Of a stretch of 37,126 nucleotides of DNA, positions 42-19,139 are shown in pieces (the stretch's first letter is position 1; each line of letters begins with the position of its first letter). The notes beneath the pieces are model-generated. The model ran no database searches. It was given only the letters and a program-made list of their open reading frames with translations, and was not told the origin of the DNA. A program made the position numbers and the translations under genes. The stretch comes from Acidobacteriota bacterium (GTDB lineage Bacteria; Acidobacteriota; Terriglobia; Acidiferrales; UBA7541): NCBI GenBank assembly GCA_003166795.1, contig PMUS01000024.1:143-37268 (forward strand), in the 5' to 3' direction.

Positions 42-117
<76 letters not shown>

Positions 118-257
118 CCGAACCGGTTCGCCTACTCTCTTCCTGCGTTCGCGCTGGAAACTCGCCGAGCCATTCCGCTCTCGAAATCCTTCGCGAGGCC
201 CTCGCCGCGATTTTCTTCACATCTTCGGGACCAGCCGCTCGGAGTCGCATGAGACGC

Positions 258-346
258 TGGTGGACGGGGGAGGATTCGAACCTCCGTAGCCCGCAAGGAG
301 CGGCAGATTTACAGTCTGCTGGTTTTAGCCACTCACCCACCCGTCC
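258..346 (-). tRNA. tRNA-Tyr(GUA)
   Basis: An 89-nt minus-strand tRNA with a long class II variable arm, encoded CCA, acceptor GGACGGG/CCCGTCC and anticodon stem GCAGA/TCTGC around loop CTGTAAA (anticodon GTA). The T loop is GGTTCGAATCC. The gap to the next tRNA (118-257) holds no further tRNA or credible gene. Confidence 0.97.
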
Positions 347-437
347 GGCGAAACGCGCTCGGGACACAGCTGTCGTCTCCCGCAAACCGAACCAGAACTG
401 TACCGGACTGCTGTACGGGGCACTCCGAAATGCAGAA

Positions 438-465
438 AGGGCTCGTGTGTGGACACACCAGCCCT
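438..465. other. Hairpin in the tRNA cluster spacer
   Basis: AGGGCT and AGCCCT enclose a second stem GTGTG/CACAC with loop TGGA and one C-C mismatch. A run of six T follows at 472-477 on the plus strand, six bases past the stem. That is too far for a standard intrinsic terminator, and no plus-strand gene lies upstream. It may instead fold in the polycistronic tRNA precursor between tRNA-Thr(UGU) and tRNA-Tyr. Confidence 0.4.
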
Positions 466-530
466 GTTCGCTTTTTTCGCGAGGAATCCGTCCTTATACC
501 CGACCGCTGAATCCCGGTCCCCTTAAACTC

Positions 531-603
531 AGCTGGCGGAGGGAGTTGAACCCCCGACCCTCTGATTACAAATCAGATGCTCTACCAACTGAGCTACGCC
601 AGC
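531..603 (-). tRNA. tRNA-Thr(UGU)
   Basis: A 73-nt minus-strand tRNA: acceptor GCTGGCG/CGCCAGC, D arm TAGCTCAGTTGGTAGAGC, anticodon stem TCTGA/TCAGA with loop TTTGTAA (anticodon TGT). Unlike the two complete tRNAs downstream it has no encoded CCA (TGAG follows the acceptor), so the end must be added by CCA nucleotidyltransferase. It is the promoter-proximal gene of the cluster. Confidence 0.96.
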
Positions 604-6977: not shown

Positions 6978-7493
6978 TTATTTCGCAGCGAGGAGCGGAG
7001 TGACGTCCTTGTCGAATTGATCGTAGGTGCGGGCTTCCTTGTAGAACGCGACGTTCTTGCCGGTGCGATCGAAGATCATAGTCATGGGGAGCGCAGTATC
7101 CCAGCGCGAGTCCATGTCTTTATAAAACTGATCTTCGGTATTCGCTGCGATGTACACCGTAAACGGTGGCTTGGTCTCGCTCAGGTACTTCTGCAATTCG
7201 TCTTTGTCGGTGACGTCGTTCATCGACACTTCGATGACCTGCAAGCCTCTGCCCTTATACGTGTTCTGAAGCTTGATAATGTCGGGAAATTCCGTGTGGC
7301 ACGGGACGCACCAAGTGGCGAAGAAGTTCAGGACGACAACTTTGCCCTTGTTCTGCGCGACAATGTCCTTGATGTCCTTGGGCTCGACGGATTTTATATC
7401 GGACGATTGAGCGCGGACAGCTGGCCCGGCGGCGCCGACCGCAAAGACCGCCGCCAAAACCAATAGATAAAAGCGCTTGTGCCAAGTCTTCAC
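6978..7493 (-). CDS. TlpA/ResA-like exported thioredoxin
   Basis: A 171-aa protein with a signal peptide (residues 1-28, ending AVRAQ) and a thioredoxin fold. NFFATWCVPCHTEFPDIIKLQ holds the active-site Cys62-x-x-Cys65, and the cis-Pro region is TALPMTMIFDRTGK. Such proteins keep periplasmic cysteines reduced, often for cytochrome c maturation or to recycle other thiol enzymes. Its ATG overlaps the stop of the rhodanese-redoxin gene (ATGA), which suggests translational coupling, and it sits 10 bp before the quinoprotein gene. A role as partner of the cysteine-bearing neighbours is an inference from position. Confidence 0.93.
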   Translation of the reverse strand: MKTWHKRFYLLVLAAVFAVGAAGPAVRAQSSDIKSVEPKDIKDIVAQNKGKVVVLNFFATWCVPCHTEFPDIIKLQNTYKGRGLQVIEVSMNDVTDKDELQKYLSETKPPFTVYIAANTEDQFYKDMDSRWDTALPMTMIFDRTGKNVAFYKEARTYDQFDKDVTPLLAAK

Positions 7494-8560
7494 TGGCCGC
7501 TCCCAGACGTGGGGGGCGGCGAGGCGAGCATTTTCACGGCTGCGTCCTGGACCTGCGTGAAGGTCGAGCCGGTGATGTTCACGAAATTCGCGACGACCTG
7601 GCGATTGTCGTTGACGAGAATGGTGTTGTCCGCCGCGGGAGCGAGCTTATAGAGGCGCATGCCCAAATCCAGATTGCCTTTGGCGAAGTAAACGAGTGGA
7701 ATCTGAATGCCCTTATCGGCGGCGAGCTTTTCGAGCCATTCTTTCGTGTCGGCGCCTTCGGTCATGACGACGAAGCCCTTTAGATTCTTTTGCGATTTGA
7801 CGAGCGCATCGAGCTTAACGATCAAGTCCGCTGCCCCGTCGCTCGGCTTGTTGAAAAACCCGATGAGGGTCGGCGCGGCGCCGTATTCGCACACATAGCA
7901 GGTGTCCTGGCCCTTGTACTTGCCGGTGACGTCAATTACGCGCAGAGAGGGGGTCATTGCGCCAACCTGTCGGCCGGAGACGAGCGGGCCGGAAGCAACA
8001 GCAGGCTGCGCGGAAGCCGTTGCGGCCGGAGCGGCGCCACCTTCACTCGAAGTGCTGCCGTTGGCCGCGGCGGCATCGGCCATCTTGATGGCGCTGGCCG
8101 CGTCAGAGCCGTCTACGGGCAATTTCAGCGCGACCCATTTGTACCAGCCGCCTTCGAGAACCTTCGTGTTGAGGTAGCCGAACTCCGCGAGCTTCTTGTA
8201 CATGTCGAGCGAGTCTTCGTCATGGTTGCATGGGCAGTAGAGCACGAGCATTTTGTTGCGCGGGAGCGGAATCGGCGGCTTCACCTGCTGAACCCAGGGA
8301 TAGTTGATCGCGCCCGGAATGTGGCCTTCGGCGTAGGCTTCTTCGGGCTGGGTATCAACGAGCTGGAAGCTGGCGTCGTGATTGTCCATCATCTTCTTAA
8401 TGTCGGCGGGAGTGATGAACTGGGCCGGGGGAGCGGCCATCGCTGTGGGATCGTCAAATCCGGGCTGTGCATCGTCCTGAGCCACGGCATATTTCGGTGT
8501 CAGCGAAAAAAGAGCTGTCGCCAAGGTTCCGATCGCGAGCCATTTAGCTAGAGTTTTCAT
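7490..8560 (-). CDS. Exported rhodanese-redoxin fusion protein
   Basis: A 356-aa protein. A signal peptide (1-28) precedes a rhodanese domain at about 47-150 with FQLVDTQPEEAYAEGHIPGAINYP and an active loop LYCPCNHDEDS (Cys109, Cys111), then VLEGGWYKWVALKLPV. An Ala/Ser-rich linker (151-190) leads to a thioredoxin-like/peroxiredoxin-like domain (about 195-345) starting GRQVGAMTPSLRVIDVTGKYKGQ with DTCYVCEYG (Cys221, Cys224). It probably transfers sulfane sulfur or shuttles disulfides in the periplasm, but partners are unknown. An AGGGGGG ribosome site lies before ATG 8560. It is first in the unit with the TlpA-like and quinoprotein genes. Confidence 0.88.
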   Translation of the reverse strand: MKTLAKWLAIGTLATALFSLTPKYAVAQDDAQPGFDDPTAMAAPPAQFITPADIKKMMDNHDASFQLVDTQPEEAYAEGHIPGAINYPWVQQVKPPIPLPRNKMLVLYCPCNHDEDSLDMYKKLAEFGYLNTKVLEGGWYKWVALKLPVDGSDAASAIKMADAAAANGSTSSEGGAAPAATASAQPAVASGPLVSGRQVGAMTPSLRVIDVTGKYKGQDTCYVCEYGAAPTLIGFFNKPSDGAADLIVKLDALVKSQKNLKGFVVMTEGADTKEWLEKLAADKGIQIPLVYFAKGNLDLGMRLYKLAPAADNTILVNDNRQVVANFVNITGSTFTQVQDAAVKMLASPPPTSGSGQ

Positions 8561-8784: not shown

Positions 8785-10347
8785 TCAGGGGGCGGGGAGC
8801 GTGAAACCGTAGATCACTCCATCCACGGGATACACGACGTACTGGCGGCCGTCCAATTCGTAGGTCATTGCCCCAGTGCCCAGCGATCCGCCTGGATACA
8901 TGTGCCAAAGGACCTTTCCCGTGGCGGCGTCAAGCGCGACCAGGCTCGACGAGCTGTCCGCGGTGAAAACCAGGCCGCCGGCAGTGGACAAGATGCCGGA
9001 TTGCCCGCCACGCCCCTCGGTGTCGGCCGTCCAGCGGGTCTTACCGGTCTGAACGTCAATCGCCTTGAGCATGGATTTCGATGACAGGAAGAAATCTCTT
9101 CCCGCCCAACCCTCAGCCATTTTCCCCGGCATCGTCAAATAGAACACTCCCATCGCTTCGCGCGAATTCACGTAGATGAGGCCCGTGTCGGGATCGTAGC
9201 TCGGCGCCTGCCAATTTGTGCCGACGCCTCCGGTGACCAACACGCCATCGGGCTGAGGCTCCTTGTCGCGGAGCGGAATCGGCTGGCCGCGCTCGTCGAA
9301 GCCCGAGAGCCAGTTCGCGGGAACAAAAGCCTCGGAGACAAGCGCCTTGCCATCCGTGCGGTCGAGCACGAAGAACAGACCGTTCTTCCCTGCCTGCGCG
9401 AGCATCTTTCGCGGCTTCCCGTGAAATGGACCGTCGAAAAGTACGGGCGTCATGACCATGTCCCAATCGTGCGTGTCGTGTGGCGACGTCTGAAAATACC
9501 AGACGAGCTTGCCGGTATCGGGATTCAACGCCACGATCGTGCAGGTGTAGAGGTTCGCGCCGGCGCGCGTGTCGCCGTTCTCAACAGGATGCGGATTGCC
9601 CGTGCCCCAGTACAGCAGATTCAACTCCGGGTCGTACGTGCCGGTGAGCCACGTCATTCCGCCGCCGCGCGTGACTACGTTGGTATCGTGCGGCCATGTC
9701 TTCCATGCGGGATCTTCCGGCTTGGGCATGGAGTCCCAGCGCCACTCCACTTTTCCGGTCATCGGGTCAATGGATTGAAGAAATCCGGGAAGATCGGCGG
9801 TGTCGCCGGAAGTGCCGACAATGATGTGATCGCGAATCACGAGCGGCGCCATGCTGCCGAATGCTTTCAGCGCGGGATCGTCAATCTGAATCTGCCAGAT
9901 CATTTTTCCGTCGCGGGCGTCGAGGCAGAGAAGTTGCGCATCGAAAGTGGTCAGAAAGAGGCGATCCTTCCACATGGCGAGACCCTTGTTGCCTCCGCTG
10001 ACGGACTCCCCGGGACGCGCGAAGTGCCAGACTTGCCGGCCGGTGCGAGCGTCCACCGCCCACGCCTGATTGCCACCCGCGATGTAGAGGATGCCGTTCA
10101 CTTCGAGGGGCATGGATTGCAGACCCTGCGTGTGCGCCTGAAACGCCCAGGCGAGACTCATCGCGCCAACATTTGTTTTATTGATTTGCGTGAGGGGGCT
10201 GAAGCGGCGGCCGGTGTAGTCGCCATTGTACGTGGGCCAGCTATCCGTGGGAGGCGTCAGGATCTTTCCCGGGTCCAAGTCCTGACCGTGCAAATGCGAC
10301 GGCGTTAACAGCAGAACAAATAAAGCAGGAGCCAGCCACTTCTTCAC
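8785..10347 (-). CDS. PQQ-dependent dehydrogenase, alcohol dehydrogenase type
   Basis: A 520-aa exported quinoprotein beginning at GTG 10347, which overlaps the cytochrome stop as GTGA and has GGAG 10 nt upstream. The longer open frame upstream lies out of frame inside the cytochrome gene and is not real. A signal peptide (VKKWLAPALFVLLLTPSHLHG) is followed by SWPTYNGDYTGRRFSPL, typical of the methanol/ethanol dehydrogenase family. GTGNPHPVENGD and TSPHDTHDWDM carry the expected Asn and Asp of the PQQ-metal site. The adjacent-Cys pair of methanol dehydrogenase is absent, and the segment GTSGDTADLPG seems to lack the usual metal-binding Glu. Electrons would go to the cytochrome c encoded just upstream. 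Confidence 0.9.
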   Translation of the reverse strand: MKKWLAPALFVLLLTPSHLHGQDLDPGKILTPPTDSWPTYNGDYTGRRFSPLTQINKTNVGAMSLAWAFQAHTQGLQSMPLEVNGILYIAGGNQAWAVDARTGRQVWHFARPGESVSGGNKGLAMWKDRLFLTTFDAQLLCLDARDGKMIWQIQIDDPALKAFGSMAPLVIRDHIIVGTSGDTADLPGFLQSIDPMTGKVEWRWDSMPKPEDPAWKTWPHDTNVVTRGGGMTWLTGTYDPELNLLYWGTGNPHPVENGDTRAGANLYTCTIVALNPDTGKLVWYFQTSPHDTHDWDMVMTPVLFDGPFHGKPRKMLAQAGKNGLFFVLDRTDGKALVSEAFVPANWLSGFDERGQPIPLRDKEPQPDGVLVTGGVGTNWQAPSYDPDTGLIYVNSREAMGVFYLTMPGKMAEGWAGRDFFLSSKSMLKAIDVQTGKTRWTADTEGRGGQSGILSTAGGLVFTADSSSSLVALDAATGKVLWHMYPGGSLGTGAMTYELDGRQYVVYPVDGVIYGFTLPAP

Positions 10348-11144
10348 TTCAAGGTCTCCAGATACGTGAAGAGATTGTGCATGTCGGCGTTGGTGTACTT
10401 TTGCAGCAGCTCGGCATGCACGGCAAGAGGATCGTGCACTTCGATTTTCACGGCGCTCGTCGGCCAGGAGTGATACCAGCCGTCCTTGCCCATGATGGCC
10501 ACGTTGAAGTCGTCGTTGAGCAGGAGCGTGCCTTCGAAGGTTTTCCCGGAAGGCAGCGTCACAATTGCAGTTGCAGGCGTGCCCGATGGATAGAGAAAGC
10601 GAACCTCGAGGTCGGGAGGATTGTATTTCTTGGCGACGCCGGCGAGATCGCCGGTGGGCGAATGGCACGTATTGCATTTGCCGGGCCCGTTGAAATAGGC
10701 CTTACCTGCTTCGACCGTTCCCGTCGCGAGACGCTCCGCGGGAATGTCGTTGGGATATGGGCCGTAGCGGGTGTGCAAATCAAAGAGAGAGATCTGCGCG
10801 TTGAGGAAGGCGACGATATCGGAAATCTGCGACTGGGTCATTGGGAAGGGCGGCATGCCTTTATCGGGGCGGCCCCCAGTGACCACAACTCCGATGAGGT
10901 CTCCGCCCTTGTCGTGGCGGACGAGCGAGGAGCGAATAAGATCGGGTCCGCGGCCCCCAGTGGCGTCTTCCGCGTGACATGCCGAGCAGTTTTCCTTGAA
11001 GATCACCCGGCCGCGCTCGGCCGCTGCCGCTTGCGCTGCCAACTCGGCAGGAGTCGGCGCCGCCGCACGAGGCGGAGCGCCTTGCGCTGCTAGCGACGCG
11101 ACCACCCCGAGAATTGCTAACACGACGAGAGCGGGCTTCTTCAA
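10344..11144 (-). CDS. Exported di-heme cytochrome c
   Basis: A 266-aa protein with a signal peptide (1-20) and two haem-binding motifs: CSACH at residues 53-57 and CNTCH at 157-161. MPPFPMTQSQISDIVAFLN after the first gives a likely Met ligand and terminal helix of a class I cytochrome domain. The region 180-235 (PSGKTFEGTLLLNDDFNVAIMGKDG) is a beta domain often attached to such cytochromes in PQQ operons. It should accept electrons from the quinoprotein whose start codon overlaps its stop. It follows the selenoprotein gene by 66 bp, so all three probably form one transcript. Confidence 0.92.
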   Translation of the reverse strand: MKKPALVVLAILGVVASLAAQGAPPRAAAPTPAELAAQAAAAERGRVIFKENCSACHAEDATGGRGPDLIRSSLVRHDKGGDLIGVVVTGGRPDKGMPPFPMTQSQISDIVAFLNAQISLFDLHTRYGPYPNDIPAERLATGTVEAGKAYFNGPGKCNTCHSPTGDLAGVAKKYNPPDLEVRFLYPSGTPATAIVTLPSGKTFEGTLLLNDDFNVAIMGKDGWYHSWPTSAVKIEVHDPLAVHAELLQKYTNADMHNLFTYLETLK

Positions 11145-11210: not shown

Positions 11211-13016
11211 CTAGTGCCCGGCCTTCGTCAACGTCGCGCCCGTTATTTTCTTTGTCTCATTCGCCCAATTCGGGCCCGGATAGCTGAACAGCAGACTATA
11301 TCCCGGCGATCCGCCCGCGACCACGATGTGAAAATCGTCCGGGCTTTGAACGATCGGGACTTTCCCTCCCGGCTTCAGAGCGTTCTTGAAAATTTGCGCA
11401 CGATCCGGACGAATGCGGCCGTCGGCGATGGACTGATTGATCTCGTCAATTTCGCTCGCGTGCCCAAAGCCACTCGTGGCCGCGAGAAGCTTCTCATAGG
11501 GAATGCTCGTATGTTCATACAGCCATGCTTGCAAGCTCTTCCGCGTGTAGCCGAGCTTCCCCAGCTCGTACGCGCAGTCCGGGTGAAGCACCAATATATA
11601 TGTTTGCGAGTGGACCCAGCCGAAGACCACGTTGCTCGTCCGGGCGGCCACCGTGTCGAGAATTCCCTGCGCGGTCCACGGAGCAACGGCGCCGCCGCCG
11701 AGAACCAGGGGATTGCCCGATGTTGCCACGGTTACGGTGCTGTCCTCGGGTTTGTAGCCGAGGGCCACGTGATACGGTTCCCACGGGCTCTTGGCCTCAT
11801 CCTCCGCGAACGTGAAGAATGTGTACGCCTCGAAACGGCCTGTCAGCGCCATGTCGTTTACAGCCGGCCAGGTCTGGCCAATGTTCAATAGAGAGAGCCG
11901 CAACGCGCGGCCGACGGTGCTGTTCGCCCGCCACCCGTGTCCCAACATGCCGATTCCTGAATTGAAGTTCAATTCCTTGGCAAGGGGGCCGTTCACGATC
12001 ACGACCGGCGTGAAGGAACCTGTGGACGCCTGCACGTGCGTGAGATCGAAGTGCTTGTCCACAAATCCGTCCATGGCCGCGAGAATCACCGGAAAATATT
12101 CCGGCTTGGCTCCCGCCATCACGGAATTCACCGCGATTTTTTCGACTGTGGCCGTTCCATTCTTCGGAGCGACCTGGCCGACGACTTCGTCCGGCGAGCG
12201 CGTCGTCGCGGCGAGCATCGCCTTCACCAAAACCGGCGTCGGCGGAACGATCGGCAGACCATCGGCCCAGCGGCTATCGAGAAACAGATCGTTCACATTC
12301 TGGTATGCGTCCTGATAATCCGAGCCCGTGACTTTTATGTTGGTGTTCTCATGCTGCTTCTGAATTTGCGACGGCTTGGCCTCGTCCGCGGTCAGCGGGC
12401 GAACCAAGTCATCCACCATTTGATCGAATACCGCGGCGGCGATGGGCTGCAACTCTGCTTGGGTCGAGCGGGAGCGGTAATACGTGTCCGCGGGAAGGGC
12501 GATCATGCGAATTCCCGGCATGCCGCGATCTTTCGCCGCGGACTTCGCATCGTCTAGAAATTCAGTGGTTGTGAAGTAAACGCCCGGCATGCCGCTCTTT
12601 TCGATTTCAATCGTGTCGTGGGAACCCCACCACGTGCAGCTTCCTCAATCACCCACACCGAAGATGAACAAGTCGCCCTGCTGCTTCACCGTGGGGTACC
12701 ACTTGGGCATGTCGGTGATCGTCTGCGCGGAAGGCTTCGGATACATCACGATCGTGGCGTCGGGGTACTTCTGCTTCAGAATCTGCGCAAGCACATTCAG
12801 GAAATTGTCGGCGCCGAATTTGCCGTTGTCCACCAGCACGATTTTCTTGCCGGCCAGGCTCGACACGCGGGCATTGATTCCCATCGTCGGCGGAGGGGGA
12901 ATTTCGCCGCGCGGATTCATCACTTCGAGCGTCACCTGCGCAGCAGCCGCGCCCGCGAGAAACAGGCTCGCGCAAACGAGCGCGGCAGCCCGGAGCCAAT
13001 TTGATTGTTTCTTCAT
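11211..13016 (-). CDS. Exported UGSC-family selenoprotein with in-frame UGA (Sec124)
   Basis: One continuous frame of 602 codons interrupted only by UGA at 12647-12645. The part before it ends FIFGVGD and the part after resumes GSCTWWGSHDTIEIEKSGMPG in the same frame, giving Sec124-Gly-Ser-Cys127. Features in order: signal peptide 1-27 (MKKQSNWLRAAALVCASLFL...), UGSC domain about 30-200 (NPRGEIPPPP, KIVLVDNGKFGADNFLNVL, then the U-x-x-C site), and a C-terminal domain about 233-595 with DGLPIVPPTPVLVKAMLAAT and GGGAVAPW. As I recall, the UGSC family is annotated in databases as seleno- or Cys-protein of unknown reaction. ATG 13016 has GGAGG 7 nt upstream. Annotated naively it would be split into a truncated 123-aa piece and a 459-aa piece starting at ATG 12590. 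It is first in a unit with cytochrome c and quinoprotein genes; no sel genes are visible. Confidence 0.88.
12612..12647 (-). promoter_or_regulatory. Selenocysteine codon and bacterial SECIS hairpin
   Basis: Counting the U of UGA as 1, nt 18-22 GUGGG pair with 26-30 CCCAC around loop GUU (23-25). A lower stem 14-17 CGUG pairs with 33-36 CACG, with GA bulged on the 3' side. Bacterial SECIS elements need a short apical loop with an early G about 16-37 nt after the UGA; here it is G23, U24. The E. coli fdhF element has its critical G23 and U24 at the same spacing, as I recall. Its bulged U17 is not matched here (G17). Confidence 0.8.
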
Positions 13017-13043
13017 GAGCGCGCCTCCACCGAAACCTGCCTG

Positions 13044-13072
13044 AAGATAGACACCGAATGCCGGAATGTCAA
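13044..13072 (-). promoter_or_regulatory. Promoter of the selenoprotein-cytochrome-quinoprotein unit
   Basis: On the minus strand a perfect TTGACA (rc of 13067-13072) is followed after 17 bp by TATCTT (rc of 13044-13049). Transcription would begin near 13037, giving a leader of about 20 nt that holds GGAGG (rc of 13024-13028) before ATG 13016. Confidence 0.7.
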
Positions 13073-13102
13073 TTTGATTGCGCGCGTCGCCGCGCGTCGT
13101 GA

Positions 13103-13132
13103 TTGGCAAATTCGTCGTGGACGGTGTATGAG
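13103..13132 (+). promoter_or_regulatory. Possible promoter of the amidase gene
   Basis: TTGGCA (13103-13108), 18 bp, then TATGAG (13127-13132). It is weaker than the divergent promoter at 13044-13072, from which it is separated by about 30 bp, so a shared regulator could control both directions. Confidence 0.35.
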
Positions 13133-14681: not shown

Positions 14682-16613
14682 TCACGGCTTCTGCAGCGTG
14701 TCGGACCAGCCGGAGGTATCGCCGAAAGGCAAGCCGGTCATCACGGCAATGATCGAATCAATTTTGCCGTTCTTGATTTTGAAAATTTCGTCCACTTCCT
14801 CGCTGAAGGGGCGGAGCGCGGCTGGGGATTCGTCCACCTTGCCGACGCCCGGCACGTCCACGGATTTTACCTTCCCTGACGTATTGAACATGAACGAGCC
14901 CATGACGATTCCGCGCTGCCGGTCCACGACGTTGTACACCCGAGGGCTGATTGGATAGATGTACTCAAAGACATGTGAATCCAATCCCGCGGCACAGCCA
15001 ACGGGCTGGCCGTTTCTAGAGGCCGCGCCGAAAGTTGACGGGCATGTTTGCGTCCCGTTCTCGACGCGAATCACATCCGGCGCGAATGGAACGATGCTGC
15101 CGCTGCTCTTCTCGATGCCGTCGAAATACAGGTCGGTCTGCGCGATCAAGTCCTTTTGCGATTCGCGCTCGGATTCAGGAATGTCCTCGAAAAATCCTGC
15201 GATCCGCGGCACGACTTTTGGATCGGTAAATCCGTCAGGACGCGTGAAGCTCACCGCAGTTTCCTTGCGCGTGACGAGCGTTTCAATTTCGGTGATCTTG
15301 CGATTGGCGACGCGCAAACGAGTGACCAGCAAGCCGGACATGCCCGCTTCGTCCGTCACGCCAACGTACGCGACTGCACCATCCTCCGGATCGTCAATGT
15401 AGAGTTTGTAGCTTCCCCAGCCGGTCAGCGTACCCCAGAGGCCGTCGCCGATTTTCAAGTCCTGCGCATTTTCCGTGTAGCGCGCGTTCGGCGCGAGCGG
15501 AAGGTGCGACGCATCGTGCTCGATGAGCGCCGCGCGGTACGCGTCCACCAGCCCGTTCAGGCATTTGCGATCGCAACTGGCCGCCCCGGATTCGCTTGGC
15601 TTCGCGGAAGCAGCGGCGGCATGCGGCGTCGCCGGTCCCCATCCGGACGTGATCCCGTACGGTTCCTGCGTGAGCACGGCCTGGATCGCGTGGATTTTTC
15701 CGTTCTCGATTTTGAAGAGTTCGCCAATCTCAAACGTAAGAGGATGGCGCAGCGTTGACGGGAAAGTGCTGCCGTCCGTCAGCGTGACCGCCTTCACTGT
15801 GCCCGCGTGATCGAAAAACGCGAACGCAAAGGCCAGCCCGCGCTCGCGGTCCACGATCACCCATCGGCGATCGCGAATGTGGGTGACGATCTTGAAGAAG
15901 CCGGTCTTGAACTGCGCCTCGCAGCCGAGGCTCATGATGGGATAGCCGGTGCTGGGCGCTTGCGTCTTATAGAGGTCTGGGTTATTGGTGGTCTGCGTGC
16001 CGTTCTCGACGCGATTACAATCCTCGGCGAACGGGTAGACGCCCTTTCCGTCGTTGTTCTGAAGGCCTGAGAAATACATATTCGCCGTCTTCACCAGCTC
16101 CTCGCGCGTGGCGCGCTCCGCCGCAGGAACGGTCTTCATGAACAGCGGGTTCGGCGACATCGCCTCCAGCTTCTTTGCCGCATCGGCATCGCGCACGACA
16201 AAGTCTTCGACTTCCGCGATCTTTCCGCCAGCCACTTTCAGGCGCAGGCAGAAAATCACAGGGTTGTCCCACTCCTTCATGGTGCCAATGAAGCCGACCT
16301 CCCCTGCCTCAGGCTCAGCAAAATAGAGCTTGAACGCGCCCTGTCCGTTTGCCGTTGCCCAGAAACCTTCGCCGATCTTAAGCCTCGCCGTGTTTTCCGT
16401 GAATTTCACGTCGCTCGCGAACGACAGTTTTGAGGGATCGCGCGCCGCAACCGCCGCGAGGTACTGATTGACGGTGTCCTCCAGGCAGGCACGGTCACAC
16501 GCGCCTTCCGAATTCGCGTGGGAAGCAGCCGCCGCAGCCGGCGTTCTCGCGAGAACCACCGCGAGAAGAGCTATCGCGCTTACGAAGATTGGTCTCAGGA
16601 ATTTCGATCGCAT
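14682..16613 (-). CDS. Exported protein with two tandem NTF2-like repeat units
   Basis: A 643-aa protein with a signal peptide (1-30). It is built of two homologous units. Unit 1 (about 39-327) starts CDRACLEDTVNQYLAAV and unit 2 (about 347-643) starts CDRKCLNGLVDAYRAAL. Each then has FTENTARLKIGEGFW or YTENAQDLKIGDGLW, a KLY(F/I) strand, and later a CNRVENGTQT or VIRVENGTQT segment with IFKIKNGKI-type closing strands. The strand pattern and ENGKI endings recall the SnoaL/NTF2 fold. I recall a fungal and bacterial family, DUF8021, with the same CDRxCL opening, but this is unverified. Function unknown. GGAGG lies 6 nt before ATG 16613. It is downstream of the cytochrome/quinoprotein pair by 109 bp and may be cotranscribed. 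Confidence 0.8.
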   Translation of the reverse strand: MRSKFLRPIFVSAIALLAVVLARTPAAAAASHANSEGACDRACLEDTVNQYLAAVAARDPSKLSFASDVKFTENTARLKIGEGFWATANGQGAFKLYFAEPEAGEVGFIGTMKEWDNPVIFCLRLKVAGGKIAEVEDFVVRDADAAKKLEAMSPNPLFMKTVPAAERATREELVKTANMYFSGLQNNDGKGVYPFAEDCNRVENGTQTTNNPDLYKTQAPSTGYPIMSLGCEAQFKTGFFKIVTHIRDRRWVIVDRERGLAFAFAFFDHAGTVKAVTLTDGSTFPSTLRHPLTFEIGELFKIENGKIHAIQAVLTQEPYGITSGWGPATPHAAAASAKPSESGAASCDRKCLNGLVDAYRAALIEHDASHLPLAPNARYTENAQDLKIGDGLWGTLTGWGSYKLYIDDPEDGAVAYVGVTDEAGMSGLLVTRLRVANRKITEIETLVTRKETAVSFTRPDGFTDPKVVPRIAGFFEDIPESERESQKDLIAQTDLYFDGIEKSSGSIVPFAPDVIRVENGTQTCPSTFGAASRNGQPVGCAAGLDSHVFEYIYPISPRVYNVVDRQRGIVMGSFMFNTSGKVKSVDVPGVGKVDESPAALRPFSEEVDEIFKIKNGKIDSIIAVMTGLPFGDTSGWSDTLQKP

Positions 16614-16722
16614 ATGCGGCCTCCGGTTCAAACTCGAATGAATGCCTGGTGAATCAATTCGGCTTCCTGTGGCATTTCGACGCAAGGAGCATCAATCGGG
16701 GTACCTGAAAGCGGTCACCGCT

Positions 16723-18318
16723 TTACGGCAAGCCAAACACAAAGTAAGTGGTGCCGGCCGTGACGAAAACATATTGCCTGCCGCCCGCCGAGAACGTCAC
16801 CGGATTCGATCGCAGCGACGAGCCCAGATTAATATCCCAAAGAGGTTTCCCCGTGACCGCGTCGAGCGCGAAGAAATTGCCTTCGTCGGTTCCGGAAAAT
16901 ACCAGACCGCCCGCGGTCGCCAGCGTGCCAACCCAGGACGGTGAGTGCAAGCGAAACTCCCATTTCATTTTTCCCGTGGTGGCCTCGAGGGCGCGGATCG
17001 CACCGTAGGCGTCATCGCCGCTGAGCGCGCGTTCGCCACCGGCGCCCATCGGAAATTTCCCCATCTCCCACTTCGTCGTAGTCCCCTTGACGAAATACGA
17101 GCCCATTTCACGCGCGTCTACGTAAAAGAGCTTCGTGATCGGGCTGTACGAATTGCTGGTCCAATTGATCGCACCGGTGATGCTGGGATAGACGAGCGTT
17201 CCCTCGGGGCTCGGATCGGAATTTGGGATCGGGATAGGCCGTCCCTTCGCGTCGAGTCCCTTCGCCCAAGTTTCCTTAACGTAAGGAGCGCCGGCGATGA
17301 ATTCCCCCGTCGCGCGATCGAGCACGTAGTAGAAGCCGTTGCGATTGGCGAAGCCCAGAAGCTTGCGCGGCTTGCCCTGCACGACGTCGTCAAAAAGGAC
17401 CGGTGGCTCGGACGAGTCCCAATCGTGGGTTTCGTGCGGTGAGAATTGGAAAAACCACTTTATCTTGCCGGCTTCCGGATCGATAGCGAGCAGCGCGCAG
17501 GTATAGAGATTGTCGCCTGGCCTCCCGTCACCGTTCCAGTCCGGAGCTGGGTTGCCCGTGCCCCAATAAATCAGATTCAGCTTAGGATCGTAGGCGCCCG
17601 CATTCCACGTGGTGCCGCCCGCAGGAACGGAATCGCCCCACGTTTCCGCATCAGGTTCACCGGGCGCCGGAACCGTCCAGATGCGCCACAGGCGCTTGCC
17701 GGTCGCAGCGTCGTAGCAGTCGAGGAAACCGCGAACGGCGGCTTCGCTGCCACCCGTGCCGATCAGGATTTTGCCGTCGATCGCGAGAGGCGCCGCAGTG
17801 ATCGCATAGCCCATTTTGTTATCGGCAACCACGATATTCCAAATCACGGCGCCGGTCGTGGCGTCGAGCGCGACGAGATGCGCATCAATCGTGGCAACGT
17901 ACACGCGATGATCCAGAACCGCGACGCCGCGATTGGTCTGAAATAATCCGATGGCGACTACATTCTTCAAAATCGGCGACCACGTCCAAAGCTTGTTCCC
18001 CGTGTGCGCGTCAAGGGCAGTCACCGTGCTCGGCGGATCGGTGACGTACATGATTCCGTCCACCACGATCGGCGAAGTTTCCACGTTTCCAGCGGGACGC
18101 GTCGGTTGGTACGCCCAGGCCAATTTCAGCCCGGCGACATTTTGCGGAGTGAGTTGCTTTAGGCCGGAGAAACGCTGGTCGTAATAGTTGCCGCCATACG
18201 TGAGCCAGTTCGCCGGCTCGCTATCGGATTTCACAACGCGCTGATAAGGCACCTGCCCGAACGCAGGAAGCGCGGCTGCCAGAGCTAGAAGAGCGAGCAC
18301 AAACCTAATGGCTCTCAT
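16723..18318 (-). CDS. PQQ-dependent dehydrogenase, alcohol dehydrogenase type
   Basis: A 531-aa exported quinoprotein with signal peptide MRAIRFVLALLALAAALPAFG and an eight-bladed propeller opening NWLTYGGNYYDQRFSGLKQLTPQNV. The site motifs are complete: GTGGSEAAVRGFLDCYD (Glu), GTGNPAPDWNGDGRPGDNLY (Asn), FSPHETHDWDSSEPP (Asp). No adjacent Cys-Cys pair is present. It resembles the quinoprotein at 8785-10347 but keeps the metal-binding Glu. Its ATG overlaps the stop of the upstream cytochrome gene (ATGA), so cytochrome and dehydrogenase are made together. Substrate unknown. Confidence 0.92.
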   Translation of the reverse strand: MRAIRFVLALLALAAALPAFGQVPYQRVVKSDSEPANWLTYGGNYYDQRFSGLKQLTPQNVAGLKLAWAYQPTRPAGNVETSPIVVDGIMYVTDPPSTVTALDAHTGNKLWTWSPILKNVVAIGLFQTNRGVAVLDHRVYVATIDAHLVALDATTGAVIWNIVVADNKMGYAITAAPLAIDGKILIGTGGSEAAVRGFLDCYDAATGKRLWRIWTVPAPGEPDAETWGDSVPAGGTTWNAGAYDPKLNLIYWGTGNPAPDWNGDGRPGDNLYTCALLAIDPEAGKIKWFFQFSPHETHDWDSSEPPVLFDDVVQGKPRKLLGFANRNGFYYVLDRATGEFIAGAPYVKETWAKGLDAKGRPIPIPNSDPSPEGTLVYPSITGAINWTSNSYSPITKLFYVDAREMGSYFVKGTTTKWEMGKFPMGAGGERALSGDDAYGAIRALEATTGKMKWEFRLHSPSWVGTLATAGGLVFSGTDEGNFFALDAVTGKPLWDINLGSSLRSNPVTFSAGGRQYVFVTAGTTYFVFGLP

Positions 18319-19139
18319 TGGGCGCCTTTCAGGCTGGCCAAATACGCGACCAGATCGTCGAGTTGCGGCGCGGAAAGAGTGTCCTTGAAGCTGGGCATCA
18401 CGCTTTTCCCGGGAATTTTTTCAATCCTCTGCACGTCGAGTTTGTTGAAGGCGTGAAAGTGGCCCGTCGCGTCCTTGATCTCGATCGTGAACGAATCCTC
18501 GCTCACGCGCGTGCCGTCCACGGAGTGGCCGTCCTTGGTAACCACGTGGACGAACAAAAACTGCGTGAAGCGGCCGCGCTCCATCGCGCCCGCCTCCTGC
18601 GGCAGATTCGTGCCGGGAGTCAGCAGCGCTGTGCGCAAGTAGCTCGGACCGCGCATGGCGCCGACTCGCGTCAGCTCCGGTCCGACGCCACCGCCCTCTC
18701 CACTGATAATGTGGCAGCCCGCGCAGCCGCTCGCTTCATAGACCGATTTCCCTTTGGTTACGTCGCCCTTCGCGATTTCGGTATCCGCGGTGTGGCCCAG
18801 AGTCCGCAAATAACCGATTACCTGGCCGGTTTCCTCGGCACTCAGCGATCCGAACCCGTTCATGCCCGTGCCCGGAATTCCTCCGCGAATGATGCCGCCC
18901 ATTGCCTCGTCGCCCAGTCTTTCCGGAGCGCCCTGGAGACTCGGGCCATCGCTGCCGCCCGCATCCAGGCCGTGACATCGCGAACACGTCGCCTCGTAGA
19001 GTTTCTTGCCGGTCGCGACGTCCTCGGGCGATGTTTTGGAAACCACAGGCGTCGGGTCGCGCGGAATTTGCGAGAGCACCGCCGGCACGCAGACGAACAA
19101 TCCCAGTGCAGCCACACACAGCGGCCGGATCGCGCTCAT
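18315..19139 (-). CDS. Exported di-heme cytochrome c
   Basis: A 274-aa protein with a signal peptide (1-23) and two class I haem motifs: CSRCH at residues 52-56 and CAGCH at 139-143. Met ligands are plausible in GTGMNGFGSLSAEE and KSVMPSFKDTLSAPQ. It ends with a typical terminal helix LDDLVAYLASLKGAQ. An inserted beta region (FVHVVTKDGHSVDGTRVSEDSFTIEI shortened here to its start FVHVVTKDGHSVDG) precedes the second Met. ATG 19139 was chosen as the start of the signal peptide. It is the electron acceptor expected for the quinoprotein translated from the overlapping start. Confidence 0.92.
   Translation of the reverse strand: MSAIRPLCVAALGLFVCVPAVLSQIPRDPTPVVSKTSPEDVATGKKLYEATCSRCHGLDAGGSDGPSLQGAPERLGDEAMGGIIRGGIPGTGMNGFGSLSAEETGQVIGYLRTLGHTADTEIAKGDVTKGKSVYEASGCAGCHIISGEGGGVGPELTRVGAMRGPSYLRTALLTPGTNLPQEAGAMERGRFTQFLFVHVVTKDGHSVDGTRVSEDSFTIEIKDATGHFHAFNKLDVQRIEKIPGKSVMPSFKDTLSAPQLDDLVAYLASLKGAQ

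Follow-up and report, generated by a model that had tools for sequence, protein, structure and literature searches.

The window (the whole stretch of DNA that was analysed, 37,126 nucleotides of an Acidobacteriota bacterium, contig PMUS01000024.1) carries on its minus strand a single frame, 13016-11211, of 601 residues and a stop. The sole interruption is a TGA at 12647-12645 (codon 124). Two ORFs are found at the locus under the standard code (12645..13109 and 11211..12590, both minus), and standard annotation would break the gene into these two pieces. The original prediction was that two truncated frames are one gene; this is borne out by the single frame and by the Pfam score of the joined protein given below. 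With TGA read as U, one codon only was changed in the 601-residue translation (U124), and the predicted context, GVGD-U-GSC-TWWGSHD, was recovered. The upstream piece stops at the motif, as had been stated. The downstream ORF was said to resume exactly after it, which needs correction: the frame is open there, but the next ATG (12590) lies 19 codons past the UGA. Coordinates are collected in Table 1.

Table 1. Features of the window gene, its neighbours and relatives at other loci (L numbers); window positions unless a locus is given.
Feature	Position	Strand	Remarks
Two-domain UGSC selenoprotein gene	11211..13016	-	601 aa and TAG stop (11213-11211); ATG at 13016
UGA read as selenocysteine 124	12645..12647	-	TGA also in three orthologues and eight other copies of the same genome
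GGAGG, probable ribosome-binding site	13024..13028	-	Read from the sequence
Probable Sec-type signal peptide, residues 1-26	12939..13016	-	By eye from the sequence start, using general signal-peptide rules
UGSC domain (PF24696), residues 32-204	12405..12923	-	Pfam match; structure model covers residues 40-205
C-terminal domain, residues 205-601	11214..12404	-	No Pfam match; stand-alone relative near a short UGSC gene in L126
SECIS-like hairpin, loop GUU	12615..12633	-	Nt 15-33 from the U of UGA; pairing and covariation comparison
c-type cytochrome	10344..11144	-	Next to the window gene; same order in L025 by sequence
PQQ-type dehydrogenase	8785..10677	-	Neighbour; true start probably inside the ORF
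Rhodanese-domain protein	7490..8560	-	Neighbour
TGA-less long-form copies	L126:2052-3875, L126:12161-13879, L127:5153-9135, several in L128 and L129		
Four-TGA long-form UGSC relative	L130:2969-4741, L131:1103-2875	-	GGUUGC (adjacent TGAs); UVU near the C-terminus; lipoprotein-like start
Aldehyde ferredoxin oxidoreductase-like and NuoE/NuoF-like genes	L142:10991-13042, L137:320-2155, L132:6373-9924		Near UGSC copies

The joined protein matched the Pfam UGSC family (PF24696) with 110 bits over residues 32-204 (cut-off 25). Scored alone, residues 32-123 gave 43.5 bits and residues 1-62 of the second piece 15.9 bits. Because the two halves align with adjacent parts of a single Pfam family and three orthologues keep the TGA, the arrangement is more than a chance pairing of frames. 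The NCBI equivalog model UGSC_fam (NF041046) gave 91.8 bits, below its curated cut-off of 125. Weak NCBIfam matches to MobA and beta-etherase were set aside as chance. Judging from the start of its sequence, the protein is probably exported. No twin-arginine motif was found in the window copy; 7 of 28 starts examined have one (six in the same genome, one elsewhere).

The gene is followed by genes for a cytochrome c, a PQQ-type dehydrogenase and a rhodanese, and locus L025 has frames with the same sequence starts in the same order (compared by eye). An amidase is also among the neighbours. Two further observations were made in the window. Three consecutive tRNA genes lie at 45-603 (minus), and the frame at 14685-16613 (minus) encodes a 643 aa protein with no Pfam or NCBIfam listing, relatives of which occur near UGSC copies in L033, L142 and L143.

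Decoding of the UGA was assessed from relatives, machinery and RNA structure. Four relatives were found in named Acidobacteriota MAGs (Terriglobia, Candidatus Acidiferrales, Acidobacteria). TGA stands at the site in all three orthologues that cover it (GenBank MAGs L025-L027; 76-83% protein identity), and the fourth relative (L028) starts past the motif. The genome itself has nine UGSC genes, and every match has one TGA; seven genes are intact, the copy at C47:8527-10254 is fragmented, and the copy at C109:16254-17913 is divided by unresolved bases. U-x-x-C reads USTC, USSC or UGGC in the eight sister copies. A check of homologues at column 124 had been proposed with the original prediction, and an in-frame TGA was present in the three covering orthologues and in all eight sisters. 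Among the UGSC copies inspected, none has a Cys form at the Sec column; the accessible part of an earlier survey lists 255 Sec forms and 21 Cys homologues for the family (PMC2398784). Across 297 genomes of the phylum a UGSC match was found in 33, and 128 of the 143 matches counted have a TGA, with per-genome counts being lower bounds (at most 11 candidates scored per genome). The TGA sits at the motif in all 38 survey loci read.

The source assembly (115 contigs, 92.87% complete) was searched for selA, selB, selC and selD, as had also been proposed. All four are present on one contig. The tRNA-Sec lies at C113:105665-105759 (67.4 bits, Rfam cut-off 47; ARAGORN anticodon tca) and is followed on the same strand by selD, selA and selB, all over their cut-offs, down to C113:101258. 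A second Rfam tRNA-Sec match (47.4 bits, just above the cut-off) is a tRNA-Ser according to ARAGORN and was rejected. A second selA-like sequence, in two frames, was seen at C104:636-2001 (L010), away from the sel cluster on a contig of 5.5 kb. In the survey, a selA match at E <= 1e-100 was present in 31 of 31 genomes with a TGA-bearing UGSC match; 191 of all 297 genomes are over the selA cut-off (both counts uncorrected for phylogeny).

In bacterial selenoprotein genes a SECIS hairpin is expected just after the UGA. The short UGSC genes, like the window gene and its three orthologues, have a hairpin whose loop occupies nt 23-25 (U of UGA = 1). In this sample of 21 loci (18 distinct sequences), 93.1% of 144 cells are paired, 12 cells are changed on both sides and the covariation score is 0.280. 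Taken separately, none of these three measures was reached in 500 shuffles, which take no account of codon constraint. Two of the five measures were unremarkable: pairs changed on both sides were matched by 193 of 500 shuffles and further pair types by 416. The pairs with two-sided changes are 15-33, 21-27 and 22-26. Four rows lack pair 16-32 and four lack pair 17-31, the latter in the window group itself. Slid versions of the hairpin pair in at most 51.4%, and a single-sequence fold of 45 nt from the window was no better than shuffles (z -0.21). In 25 long-form sister sequences, counted apart, the hairpin stands two bases further on. The compensatory changes after the UGA are those of a putative bacterial SECIS hairpin.

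From these results the UGA is almost certainly decoded as selenocysteine. The locus could instead encode two separate proteins, the first ending at the UGA and the second beginning at 12590, and both frames are indeed open under the standard code; but the break would cut a single Pfam domain in two, the TGA has the same place in all nine copies and three orthologues, and the genome has the Sec machinery, which makes this very improbable. A nonsense mutation or sequencing error, conceivable in a 115-contig draft with two sister copies fragmented or split, has a negligible chance given the same TGA in separately assembled relatives and the covariation of the hairpin.

No match was found for residues 205-601 in Pfam. 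A full-length profile was run against the genome, and all 12 rows returned are UGSC fusion genes or fragments of them. In locus L126 (genome G113; 16249-18747, minus) a short UGSC gene and a stand-alone gene for the C-terminal domain lie close together on the same strand, with a DUF6282 gene between. The stand-alone protein is 34.7% identical to the C-terminal domain of the window protein over 352 columns (E 2.5e-57). On the other side lies a thioredoxin-reductase-like gene, on the same strand (314 bits, below the cut-off of 343). Occurrence of the two domains both separate and fused suggests that they act together.

The family is many-copied in another Acidobacteriota genus. Nine of its genomes gave 12 to 35 matches each to a profile of alignment A2; such matches can be pieces of one gene. 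For G113, at least 20 TGA-bearing rows were present among 27 listed of 35 matches. The largest bacterial selenoproteomes described in the available text of PMC13188914 have 57 and 63 genes. Since standard annotation would split the gene and the family has many copies in each of the genomes seen, much of the selenoprotein set of a soil bacterium could go unnoticed.

Fifteen phylum-survey rows have no TGA, and those in L126-L129 were inspected. Divergent long-form copies of another genus, lacking TGA and lying in clusters of G037, G113 and G274, have Ser, Thr or Gly at the Sec column where this could be placed, and no Cys; in VKTSG-type copies the alignment of that column is uncertain. These copies tell against a strict Sec requirement across the long forms at large. 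G113 and G250 have a 591-residue long-form relative with four in-frame UGAs. Its TGAs are at codons 131, 132, 566 and 568, and the frame ends in TAG or TAA. Over the 23 codons past the last TGA the two genomes differ by four silent and two amino-acid changes. Searched for in 15 genomes of that family, the relative turned up in 2 (E <= 1e-60); it could be a four-selenocysteine protein.

Neighbouring ORFs were clustered over 30 loci. The groups consist partly of antisense frames, so only checked groups are given here, the family of window frame 14685-16613 being the exception. Near other copies of the window's own genome, genes were found for syringate O-demethylase DesA (814 bits, NCBI cut-off 800), catechol 2,3-dioxygenase (346.7, cut-off 320.2) and LigK aldolase (325, cut-off 304.5). 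Of two PQQ-type dehydrogenases near these copies, one is over and one under its NCBI cut-off. Aromatic genes over cut-offs occur in two (L032, L033) of the five other UGSC regions of the genome, four of which were scanned, excluding the three-copy region L030. The genes beside the window copy itself (cytochrome c, PQQ dehydrogenase, rhodanese, amidase) give no hint of aromatics. A PQQ-type dehydrogenase at L029:5275-6879 (minus) also reaches 537.5 bits, under the cut-off of 650, on the 'acido-empty-quinoprotein group A' model. Near UGSC copies of the other genus, genes resembling aldehyde ferredoxin oxidoreductase and NuoE/NuoF were met repeatedly, scoring below NCBI cut-offs.

Residues 40-205 were modelled as an alternating beta/alpha domain with Sec-x-x-Cys at the N-terminal tip of a helix, at medium confidence and from five close sequences. 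An AlphaFold model of the whole protein (mean pLDDT 42.5) was set aside. No thioredoxin-fold chain was named among the best 50 matches listed by VIA-align and by Foldseek; a thioredoxin fold is still possible. The PDB was also searched by sequence, using profiles of the whole protein and of the domain as well as one GrdB protein, and no useful match was obtained.

The UGSC domains were compared with the Sec end of proteins found by PF07355 using hhalign. Thirty-seven UGSC domains (29 kept by hhalign; L024 was dropped, its frame being broken by Ns) were set against 20 GrdB-side proteins, two of which (L078, L081) lack the U at this position. The alignment had a probability of 90 (P 1.6e-6); the comparison was picked after the likeness had been spotted by eye and rests on profiles built for this analysis. 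Taken separately, long forms gave 90.5 and short forms 77. Masking the four motif columns on both sides left a probability of 84, and 200 column shuffles reached at most 2.2. Weak matches among 12 UGSC members were seen to TIGR04483 (PrdB; 2 of 12, best E 0.034) and TIGR01917 (GrdB; 1 of 12, E 0.13). PF07355 itself had no match in the window protein at E <= 1 and none in its genome; the profile ends before the Sec site, so the Sec end is uncovered. The regions matched by PF07355 did not align with UGSC (probability 0.1), and the likeness is confined to the Sec end beyond the Pfam model. A GrdB/PrdB-like ancestry of the UGSC domain is considered likely.

Enzymes of the GrdB/PrdB type presumably work through a selenium-substrate adduct. 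On this model, residue 124 would become selenocysteine through SelB and the hairpin just past the UGA. From the sequence and the medium-confidence model, the resulting Sec-x-x-Cys centre is predicted to lie where a helix of the alternating beta/alpha domain has its N-terminal tip. The protein would be a periplasmic reductase. Its reduced selenol would attack an organic substrate nucleophilically, in the manner presumed for GrdB/PrdB-type enzymes on glycine and proline, and the substrate may be held jointly with the second domain. Cys127 would then free the Se-adduct as a selenenyl-sulfide, and a thiol reductase would restore the centre. The paralogues may act on different substrates, which could be aromatic or amino compounds from plants. 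That the gene encodes an exported selenoprotein with GrdB/PrdB-like selenium chemistry on an organic substrate is proposed tentatively, as a whole, with slightly less than even confidence; the GrdB-like substrate chemistry taken by itself is possible and rather doubtful.

A periplasmic thioredoxin-like selenoprotein, reducing thiol-disulfides or peroxides (the role assumed for UGSC proteins in the literature), is an appreciable possibility, also held with some doubt. It is favoured by the UxxC motif and by the thioredoxin-reductase-like gene near the short form in L126 (see above), whereas the profile kinship with GrdB/PrdB speaks against it, and the fused 400-residue domain and many paralogues per genome may suggest substrate diversity over general redox upkeep. 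A selenol/thiol trap for metal or metalloid ions, to which the rhodanese neighbour and the metal binding thought to occur in other selenoproteins (PMC13188914, available text) would be suited, is improbable, no metal-transport or metal-resistance family having been found among the part of the neighbours scanned.

For the proposed reductase, kinship with GrdB/PrdB, if true, would provide a testable biochemical guess for UGSC selenoproteins and tie selenium use to soil carbon turnover. It is unlikely, and put forward as speculation, that two-domain UGSC proteins form a large unrecognised class of exported Sec-dependent reductases, kin to glycine and proline reductases and expanded in Acidobacteriota, that cleave carbon-heteroatom bonds of plant- or soil-derived compounds, with one branch bearing four Sec, two of them adjacent. 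In the literature searched, no statement of GrdB/PrdB kinship or of a UGSC expansion in Acidobacteriota was found; some of it may be treated by Haft and Tolstoy 2025 (mSystems).

With GrdB/PrdB the window protein shares Sec aligned on Sec in a distant profile match, and UxxC followed by E-x-x-G-[IVM]-P and PHP-like blocks; it differs in having a probable signal sequence and no PF07355 match. GrdB binds glycine and releases ammonia, according to the available text of PMC13188914. UGSC selenoproteins were in print by 2008 (PMC2398784, as far as its accessible part goes), and the window protein resembles them (PF24696, NF041046) in its domain, its U-x-x-C motif and the presence of Sec in nearly all copies seen. 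Unlike them it has some 600 residues, with UGSC fused to a second domain and preceded by a probable signal sequence; it scores under the NF041046 cut-off, and its sister copies vary in the motif. The UGSC/Unknown_1 fusion of the Global Ocean Sampling study (PMC2398784, Fig. S1A), likened here by text alone, also joins UGSC to a domain of unknown function. Such fused domains usually carry one or more conserved Cys in the account available from that study, whereas the window-type C-terminal domain has no invariant or nearly invariant Cys (alignment A2). The UGSC family is already known; the window protein is a probably exported, two-domain form of it.
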